DNA of 20,173 nt from a virus: IMG/VR virus record IMGVR_UViG_3300035666_000202, positions 1 to 20,173 of that record; one strand, written 5' to 3'. This document shows, piece by piece, positions 11,736 to 13,297 of this stretch (the stretch's first letter is position 1; each line of letters begins with the position of its first letter). A program made the position numbers and the translations under genes. The notes under the pieces were generated by a model. The model made no database searches, was not told the DNA's origin, and saw nothing but the letters and a program-made list of their open reading frames with translations.

Positions 11736-11743
11736 GCTATAAT
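11735..11743 (+). promoter_or_regulatory. Extended -10 promoter for the replication operon
   Basis: TGC followed by TATAAT (11738-11743), a perfect -10 with the TGn extension. No good -35 is present because the terminator hairpin occupies that place. Predicted start at about 11749-11751, exactly where the structured leader begins. Confidence 0.7.
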
Positions 11744-11748
11744 GTATC

Positions 11749-11900
11749 TGGCCGCTGGGGTGACGCCCGGCAACGGAGGCCACATGGGAAACTGGGCAAT
11801 ATCAACATCAATGAGCCTTTTGAGAAGGCGGGTCAGGCAACCGATAGGCCGTCAACCTATCACCAGTTTCCCACCTGCCCGTTTTCTCAAAGGGCTTTTT
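11749..11900 (+). ncRNA. Structured ~150-nt leader RNA with pseudoknot and attenuator potential
   Basis: Starts at the predicted transcription start and ends in a U run. Elements in order: TGGCC (11749-11753) pairing with GGCCA (11778-11782) around an inner GCTGGG/CCCGGC stem; L1 TGGGAAACTGG (11785-11795); L2 at 11815-11832 plus 11834-11837; hairpin GATAGG (11843-11848)/CCTATC (11856-11861); R1 CCAGTTTCCCA (11863-11873), perfect partner of L1; R2 at 11874-11895, pairing with L2 over 22 bp with one bulge and three G-U pairs. The order L1-L2-R1-R2 makes the two helices cross, an H-type pseudoknot. The L2:R2 helix followed by TTTTTG at 11896-11901 can also be an intrinsic terminator. Probably controls initiator expression; homology to a known RNA family is not recognised. 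Confidence 0.65.
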
Positions 11901-11927
11901 GTTTGGAGGTTACTTGAAGCTGACTAA
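11784..11927 (+). CDS. Possible 47-residue leader peptide overlapping the initiator start
   Basis: Reads MGNWAISTSMSLLRRRVRQP and ends LKGLFVWRLLEAD. GGAGG lies four bases before the ATG. The frame runs through the structured leader and stops at 11925-11927, 11 to 14 bases inside the initiator gene that starts at 11914. This arrangement matches leader peptides coupled to plasmid rep genes. The peptide itself is Arg-rich and shows no family, so the act of translation may matter rather than the product. Tentative. Confidence 0.4.
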   Translation: MGNWAISTSMSLLRRRVRQPIGRQPITSFPPARFLKGLFVWRLLEAD

Positions 11928-12837
11928 AATTCTTGGAAGTCCAATTGCCTTCCATCGATGCCTTGCAGAGCTGGCCGGATCCGTGACATCTGGATTGATG
12001 CTCAGTCAGGCCGTGTACTGGACGGGGAAGACGAAAGATCCGCAGGGATGGTTTTGGAAGACTCAGGATGAATGGTTTGAAGAGACCATGCTGAGTCGAA
12101 AAGAGCAAGAATCTGCTCGTCGTCGACTGCGTGAGATCACCTTTGAGGGCAAACCATTGTGGTGTGAGCAGCTGCGTGGCGTACCCGCAAAGCTTTATTA
12201 TCGAGTCGATATGGACATTCTTGAATGCCTTTTAACGGCAGATCAGCATGTCCAAAACGGTCAAGCCAGTATGCCCGAAATGGACATACTAGAAAGCCCA
12301 AAACGTGCAAGCAAGCAAGCCCAAAATGGGCATACATTCTTATTAGCAGAGACTACTACAGAGACTACTACAGAGACTACATCAGAGAGGGTGAGTGCGC
12401 GTGAGGCTTTGGTGATCTCGCAGGAGACGACACCAGCCAGACCGCACACACTGCAGGAGGAGGACGCTGTATCAATTGCAGTCAGCTTTTTTCCGCAAAT
12501 GGGGATCTGGCAACAGGAGCTGATTGCAAATGCAGACATCAGCAAGTTGCACATATGGCGACAGGTCATGCAGATATGGCGCGATCACAAGCACAGCCGC
12601 AACAACATTCACGGGATGATTGACAAGTATAATCGTTTCGAAACTCAAGATATTAGAGACAAGGAGTATCAGGCCAATGCAAAGAATGGAAATGGACATA
12701 AACGCGAATCGCACAACGAGCGCGCAGCTCGAGAGACCTTCAATCTCATCGCAAAACTCACAGGACAGGAAGGCGGCGATGATCGCCCTGATCCAGCAGA
12801 CTCGATCTTTAAGCTCCCTGCCGCTTTCGGCGGGTGA
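11914..12837 (+). CDS. Replication initiator (lambda O-like) with origin inside the gene
   Basis: 307 residues from TTG at 11914, preceded by GGAGGT; no ATG suits. Residues ~1-108 form a winged-helix DNA-binding domain (LTKILGSPIAFHRCLAELAG, LMLSQAVYWT, WFWKTQDEWFEETMLSRKEQESARRRL, LYYRVDMDIL) typical of phage O/DnaD-type initiators. A polar linker (~109-160, with VQNGQASMPEMDIL and ETTTETTTETTS) is encoded by the repeats at 12250-12384. The C-terminal part is helical (IWQQELIANADISKLHIWRQVMQIWRDH). It should bind the phage origin and recruit helicase with the next gene's product. Regulation by the structured leader is likely. Confidence 0.75.
   Translation: MKLTKILGSPIAFHRCLAELAGSVTSGLMLSQAVYWTGKTKDPQGWFWKTQDEWFEETMLSRKEQESARRRLREITFEGKPLWCEQLRGVPAKLYYRVDMDILECLLTADQHVQNGQASMPEMDILESPKRASKQAQNGHTFLLAETTTETTTETTSERVSAREALVISQETTPARPHTLQEEDAVSIAVSFFPQMGIWQQELIANADISKLHIWRQVMQIWRDHKHSRNNIHGMIDKYNRFETQDIRDKEYQANAKNGNGHKRESHNERAARETFNLIAKLTGQEGGDDRPDPADSIFKLPAAFGG
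12250..12341 (+). repeat. Four 23-bp iterons, candidate replication origin
   Basis: Units start at 12250, 12273, 12296 and 12319, exactly 23 bp apart. The first 17 bases of each fit GCCCAAAAyGkgCAwrC (units 2 and 4 match at 15 of 17, units 1 and 3 at 14 of 17). As 23 is not a multiple of three, adjacent units are read in different frames, so the similarity is at DNA level. They lie in the linker-coding part of the initiator gene, as lambda iterons lie in gene O. Confidence 0.8.
12349..12384 (+). repeat. Three 12-bp direct repeats next to the iterons
   Basis: GAGACTACTACA twice (12349-12360, 12361-12372), then GAGACTACATCA (12373-12384). They encode ETTTETTTETTS, and 12 is a multiple of three, so protein-level repetition is also possible. 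An AT-rich stretch (12334-12346) lies between them and the iterons. Confidence 0.75.
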
Positions 12838-13297
12838 TGAGCTGACGTTGGCGGTATCAACCTGGCTCGACGCTCTGGCCGAAGTGCCGGATCATTTGCT
12901 TGTCCCTGCTTGGCGACGTGCCACGAAAGACCACGACTGGTCGAGGTCATTTCCCGTGATGGCCATTCTTCCGGCATACAAAGCATTGATCCTTGAGGAT
13001 CGGGCTGCCAGAGAGAAGGCCAGCTACGCGAACAGCCGACGCGCTGACGACACCTACGCCTGCCGCTACTGCGACGACACTGGATACATGCCCGTCAAGC
13101 TGTACTGCGGATCCTTTGCCGACTGGCGATCGGCCCGACGCGCCTGCAATTGTGCCGCCACGCCAATCTCACAGCGGCTCCCGATCCCTGACATCACCGA
13201 CTGGGCGCGTGACGATCAGGGCGACTGGCTGCCTGCTCATTCTGGCGCATCGCTGCAATGCTGGTGTCTGTATTGCAAGAACGGGAGGAACCGATGA
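12779..13297 (+). CDS. Helicase-loader candidate with zinc-binding Cys cluster
   Basis: 172 residues from the ATG at 12779, with AGGAAGG upstream; it overlaps the initiator by 59 bases. The N-terminal half (LPLSAGDELTLAVSTWLDALAEVPDHLLVPAWRRATKDHDWSRSFPVMAILPAYKAL) is a helical bundle like those of phage helicase loaders/replisome organisers (lambda P, G39P type). The C-terminal half has CRYCDDTGYMPVKLYC, ACNC and CWCLYC, probably a zinc-binding region. Position right after an O-like gene is where lambda P lies. Family not proven; loader function is inferred from order and layout. Confidence 0.6.
   Translation: MIALIQQTRSLSSLPLSAGDELTLAVSTWLDALAEVPDHLLVPAWRRATKDHDWSRSFPVMAILPAYKALILEDRAAREKASYANSRRADDTYACRYCDDTGYMPVKLYCGSFADWRSARRACNCAATPISQRLPIPDITDWARDDQGDWLPAHSGASLQCWCLYCKNGRNR

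Follow-up and report, generated by a model that had tools for sequence, protein, structure and literature searches.

A probable phage replication origin of 23-bp iterons and tandem 12-mers within the initiator gene

Introduction

The DNA studied here, referred to as the window, is the whole stretch of 20,173 nucleotides of the IMG/VR virus record IMGVR_UViG_3300035666_000202. A first-pass annotation made from the letters alone had pointed to four repeats within the gene of a replication initiator and had proposed them as a candidate origin. The locus raises the question whether these repeats are a signal in the DNA, which protein would read them, and where the strands would open. From the comparisons presented below, the four 23-bp repeats are very probably the sites where the initiator protein starts the copying of the phage DNA. 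We consider it highly probable that positions 12249-12388, which encode the linker of the initiator, are the replication origin, in which the iterons would be bound, residue 63 of the initiator would read the iteron core and the adjacent 12-mers would open. Sequence comparison showed that the repeats are kept at the DNA level, that they co-vary with the initiator and that iterons and 12-mers regularly occur together; from this we infer that the initiator binds, that the strands open, that loading takes place and that the region acts as an origin. The features of the locus are listed in Table 1.

Table 1. Positions of the features of the initiator locus in the window.
Feature	Position	Strand	Remarks
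Initiator gene, O-like replication initiator	11914..12837	+	TTG start; GGAGG ahead, 11905-11909
Winged-helix DNA-binding domain (predicted)	11938..12207	+	residues ~9-98; AlphaFold2 model
Codon of Lys63, predicted specificity residue, start of recognition helix	12100..12102	+	mutual-information scan
Iteron 1, 15-bp dyad, centre 12256	12249..12263	+	12.9 bits, lowest motif score
Iteron 2, dyad centre 12279	12272..12286	+	19.1 bits
Iteron 3, dyad centre 12302	12295..12309	+	15.5 bits
Iteron 4, dyad centre 12325	12318..12332	+	13.8 bits
Tandem 12-mers GCAGAGACTACT / ACAGAGACTACT / ACAGAGACTACA and partial fourth	12346..12388	+	Tandem Repeats Finder, period 12, 93% matches
C-terminal DnaD-like segment, approximate	12460..12648	+	phrog_6493 match; boundary inferred
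Partner gene overlapping the initiator 3' end, start uncertain	12720..13297 (ORF 12620-13297)	+	ORF position kept in relatives

The initiator gene and its surroundings

In profile searches the initiator protein matches phrog_9773, annotated as 'replication initiation O-like', over residues 2-281 (E 4.5e-37) and phrog_6493, a DnaD-like helicase loader, over residues 10-274 (E 6.7e-15). The former family is also matched by every N-terminal domain in the alignment (63/63). The TTG start of the gene aligns with the ATG of four relatives (L002-L005). A search of the PDB by sequence gave zero matches for the protein, as did a search of Rfam for the initiator region, and hits to PF15780, PF10660 and similar Pfam families were discarded as chance. 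The AlphaFold2 model of the winged-helix domain (mean pLDDT 89) has helices at residues 51-58 and 62-74 and wing strands at 83-88 and 93-98. The iteron linker lies between this N-terminal domain and the C-terminal part, and its peptide is recognisable across relatives as MAESAK..CTNPPN..DGGKRQ..TETTTE.

The location of the partner-gene ORF is conserved in L003, L005 and L006, and the C-terminal half of its product is Cys-rich. It has no PHROG and no credible Pfam match, so that its function is judged from position, by which the product is possibly a helicase-loader partner. The mosaic relative L006 has the same C-terminal part and partner gene together with another N-terminal domain, which comes with repeats of its own.

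Just upstream of the initiator gene, at 11739-11905, a structured RNA leader is found, composed of a hairpin, a long terminator-like stem with a T-tract and a 9-bp pseudoknot. In a comparison of eight sequences, the window and seven viral loci, pairing is kept in 98% of cells, and both sides have changed in 16 of 48 pairs. The leader is found ahead of this initiator, of another initiator and of a gene resembling a helicase, and searching it against Rfam gave zero matches.

The iteron array in the window

The units begin at 12250, 12273, 12296 and 12319, a spacing of exactly 23 bp, which bears out the array as first described. At this fixed register the 17-bp cores of the four units share 76 of 102 pairwise identities, while 20,000 synonymous recodings of the initiator gene averaged 53.7 and reached at most 74 (p = 5e-5). 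The strongest periodicity between 15 and 40 bp in the whole window is the lag of 23 at 12244 (p < 5e-4 by codon-order shuffling). Units 1 to 4 are read in frames 2, 1, 0 and 2, so only the outer two share a frame, as had been stated, and a single DNA repeat, translated in three frames, makes up the linker protein. The earlier argument that protein repeats do not cause the periodicity likewise stands, since 23 is not a multiple of three, three frames are used and recoding gives the p value above.

Two points of the earlier description need changing. The repetition of the 17-bp core is real; a 15-bp dyad of the form TGnnn..AAA..nnnCA describes the functional unit better. Placement of the initiator on one face of the DNA, as had been suggested, does not hold strictly, since 23 bp correspond to 2.19 turns at 10.5 bp per turn and successive sites are rotated by about 69 degrees.

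Over the 20-kb fragment covered by the origin analysis, GC skew is positive from about 11.5 kb, a weak sign change which coincides with the switch in gene orientation and therefore carries little weight for the position of an origin.

Iterons in related genes

Relatives were pooled from viral contigs (5), phage records (45), viral loci (80) and bacterial loci (80), giving 110 non-redundant genes; the 80 viral loci were taken among the matches listed and are a sample, not a census. An array with a period of 21-24 bp is present in 103 of the 110 whole genes (p < 0.05 against codon-order shuffling), in 94 of them at exactly 23. A motif search of the relatives returned GNWTGSNSRAAWSCNSCAANCW, with the dyad centre at column 11. 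Neighbouring matches to it are spaced by exactly 23 bp in 214 of 260 cases and by 22 bp in another 22, and they start in all three frames (116/105/89). Alignment of homologs, which had been named as a check of the proposal, thus gave 23-bp periodicity kept although codons and core letters differ. L003 and L021 have the register, the four units and the frames of the window in other letters, and the register of L004 and L005 is also that of the window.

Homologs keeping the protein linker while lacking the DNA repeats would speak against an origin here, and no clear case was found among the 110 genes; seven fall short of p < 0.05, several of which still have units by motif. Eleven relatives considered as iteron-free controls had to be rejected, since their 23-bp arrays were found further 3', behind an inserted HNH or second wHTH domain, and consequently there is no true iteron-free homolog set. 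In L074, L075, L081, L091 and L106, as judged by eye, an inserted HNH-like domain separates the wHTH domain from the iteron linker. In L116, L119, L120, L123, L153 and L176 there are apparently two wHTH domains, with 23-bp arrays and no 12-mer; L123 seemingly carries two iteron types in tandem.

Residue 63 and the iteron core

A blind mutual-information scan of each N-terminal residue against each iteron column, covering 84 genes, was won by a wide margin by residue 63, with z = 26, 22 and 17.5 for columns 16, 15 and 7; columns 7 and 15 are dyad-related. In the AlphaFold2 model residue 63 opens the recognition helix (62-74). Within the scan, Lys63 goes with GCCC..GGGC, Arg63 with ..CGCC (the Arg63-type iteron being GGCGGAAAGCGCC) and Tyr63 with GCGGAAAACCAGC, and Ser63 or Thr63 often with GCAGG..CCYGC. 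Within one gene the core letters change in all units together.

The co-variation survives a control for relatedness by matched N-terminal identity. At an identity of 0.4-0.6 the cores differ by 0.26-0.30 between genes that share residue 63 and by 0.60-0.63 between genes that do not, and the junction and flanking columns hardly differ between the two kinds of pairs. A natural experiment is given by L050 and L056 (Arg63) compared with L070 (Tyr63), which are 77-78% alike elsewhere: the core has been exchanged in all units and the junctions have been kept. Given this co-variation, the initiator would bind the repeats through its own winged-helix domain, making them a predicted iteron origin inside the gene. 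A specificity code of one residue between initiator and iteron would predict incompatibility and would make orthogonal origins testable.

The 12-mer element

Directly 3' of the iterons lies a second array, absent from the first-pass annotation, with the repeat unit ACAGAGAYTACW in three copies. The profile of the element is [A]CAGAGA[Y/A]TAC[W], with CAGAGAnTAC as the conserved run. Of 99 genes, 94 have at least one copy following the iterons and 88 have two or more, mostly 12 bp apart. Measured from the centre of the last dyad, the first 12-mer lies 15 bp away in 40 of 87 genes and 21 bp away in the window.

The 12-mers encode TETTTE. Of the Glu codons inside them 197 of 215 are GAG, versus 1045 of 2128 outside, and in 2.9 million viral contigs a synonymous control pattern (GAG to GAA) gave 2 matches versus at least 120 for the real one. 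In 14 genes the copies are not all in one frame, owing to spacings of 10, 11, 13 or 14 bp, and two of these genes use all three frames. Judged from these sequences, the constraint on the 12-mer is one acting at the DNA level.

When the 12-mer pair was the sole query of a blind search, 62 distinct initiator-like genes came back, and 61 of the 62 have a 21-24 bp array just upstream; the matches include genes without detectable similarity to the N-terminal domain of the window type. Among the named carriers are phages of Staphylococcus, Bacillus, Geobacillus, Klebsiella, Acinetobacter, Burkholderia, Vibrio and Synechococcus; the hosts of phages with the element include Proteobacteria, Firmicutes and Cyanobacteria. 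The element is apparently undescribed: none of the titles found in the open-access literature points to a phage origin with this 12-mer. The combination of a 12-mer pair with a 21-24 bp array would make origins in phage and prophage genomes findable from sequence alone.

GC content is lowest over the 12-mers, although modestly so (-0.11 on average relative to the locus), and they are therefore no classical AT-rich tract. By inspection, the profile contains TnnT spacings and CTACTA, with TnnTnnT on the bottom strand. The element is missing from the six relatives with duplicated wHTH, in which iterons are present, and lambda, P22 and phi80 have no clear copies either; it is thus not needed by every origin of this kind.

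The 12-mer probably marks strand opening or helicase loading. More tentatively, and with slightly more doubt than confidence, we propose that in tailed-phage origins ACAGAGAYTACW may serve very widely as an element for single-strand recognition or for loading. A conserved partner would read it, and for this reason it would stay fixed across phages of Proteobacteria, Firmicutes and Cyanobacteria while the double-strand iterons diversify with their initiator. The reader may be the DnaD-like part of the initiator, the host helicase or primase, or DnaA.

Plasmid pBSG3 (L308:690-840), and also L311, carries an iteron-like array with 12-mers of the Bacillus phage PM1 type and no intact initiator gene; on this and related small Bacillus plasmids the combination is possibly a stolen or decoy phage origin. 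Two 4.6-kb Acinetobacter plasmids (L309:1201-1236, L310:1201-1236) have 12-mer-like copies, at a place where no gene is annotated, after an iteron-like inverted repeat.

Proposed mechanism

In the model that we propose, the initiator would occupy the four dyad-symmetric iterons 23 bp apart through its winged-helix domains, which probably act as dimers, with residue 63 of the recognition helix reading core bases in both half-sites. The turn of about 69 degrees per dimer would suit wrapping of the complex better than a flat arrangement. This nucleoprotein complex would then melt the DNA at the neighbouring ACAGAGAYTACW repeats, where the DnaD-like C-terminal part and/or the product of the neighbour gene would load the replicative helicase together with the host machinery. 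With a conserved element exposed beside the iterons, DNA opening and helicase recruitment become directly testable in phages of distant hosts.

Alternative explanations

Chance similarity or a recent local duplication as the source of the array would be in keeping with there being only four imperfect units in the window, and is refuted by the register shared with L003, L021, L004 and L005 and by the family-wide statistics; we give it practically no weight. It is also very improbable that the repeats are a by-product of selection on a repetitive protein linker. The linker peptide is indeed similar between relatives and synonymous recoding retains part of the periodicity, but a period that is not a multiple of three, with units in three frames, refutes this as a full explanation. 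Against it stand also the recoding result in the window (p = 5e-5), the asymmetry between GAG and GAA, the 14 genes with 12-mers in different frames and the finding that the corresponding linker of pSK41 is dispensable (PMC5703833).

A role of the initiator-binding repeats in autoregulation or copy control, with the origin elsewhere, would be served equally by all the points in favour of binding, and the strong RNA and terminator structures upstream point to regulated expression of the initiator. However, about 330 bp inside the gene is a poor place for a promoter-operator, 12-mers nearly always follow the array, and Bacillus plasmids retain array and 12-mers without the intact gene. The same layout is moreover a known origin in lambda and pSK41 (PMC5703833), and we regard this explanation as improbable. 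A further possibility leaves the origin in place and changes the role of the 12-mers, which would not open but serve, for example, as primase start sites or as the site of a host factor on duplex DNA. Each 12-mer has CTG on the bottom strand and CTA or TTA on the top strand, trinucleotides which are primase start sites, and GC content is only modestly low over the element. The Rep protein of pSK41 binds DnaG (PMC5703833). Since the 12-mers lie at a preferred distance right after the iterons, in the position of the lambda unwinding tract, and the CAGAGAnTAC run exceeds the length of a primase site, this role seems unlikely, though it deserves to be kept in mind. The preferred reading is thus that of an origin with bound iterons and 12-mers that probably open or load.

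Comparison with known origins

The first-pass annotation had likened the locus to lambda, whose origin lies within gene O, and as to mechanism the comparison is apt. The lambda iterons, at 39034-39118 in O, are four units in mid-gene, 20/24/23 bp apart and followed by the melting region, a layout like that of the window, where a dyad-symmetric array is likewise present inside the initiator gene; the origins in P22 gene 18 and phi80 gene 15 are of the same kind. The lambda iteron core CCCTCAAAACGAGGG resembles the GCCCAAAACGGGC-type core of the window, and lambda O occurs as dimers (PMC7466680). In contrast to lambda, the spacing in the window family is near-constant at 23 bp, the 12-mers take the place of the AT-rich unwinding tract beside the iterons, and the N-terminal domain is unrelated by sequence to that of O. 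The family of phage replication protein O (PF04492) gave no match for the window protein and one among 63 relatives (E 0.075). A search for the 12-mer gave one weak match in lambda (8.2 bits, p = 0.075) and none in P22 and phi80. The lambda site, TCAGAGAATTCT (L300:764-775, lambda 39163), lies in O just past the AT-rich tract and may be a relic or chance.

RepA_N replicons (pSK41, pTZ2162) and the RepA of PLE satellites have a DnaD-like winged-helix N-domain and Rep boxes or iterons whose inverted halves flank an A-tract (PMC5703833, PMC7145576). In pSK41 four Rep boxes lie centrally in rep, where the origin encodes a dispensable linker, and swaps of N-domain and origin occur in nature, as in pPR9 (PMC5703833). 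Initiator-binding repeats in the centre of rep correspond to the predicted layout in the window and its relatives. None of 63 relatives matches the RepA_N domain PF06970 at E <= 0.1. The structures 4pql, 4pt7, 5kbj and 4pta are among the closest fold neighbours of the modelled domain (Z 8.0-8.3, rmsd 2.7-3.0), a weak similarity tied with unrelated winged helices.

Repeated single-strand motifs are known at the unwinding sites of bacteria and plasmids (PMC10797057), and DnaD reads TnnT pairs in oriC of Bacillus subtilis (PMC10201434). The DnaD Recognition Element and the DnaA-trios are short repeated single-strand motifs of this sort, and CTACTA in the 12-mer is the complement of a DnaA-trio (PMC10201434). 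As a full account of the 12-mer they were rejected, since CAGAGA, its most conserved part, fits neither. By analogy, then, the predicted origin of the window works like ori-lambda and pSK41, being by sequence a member of neither.
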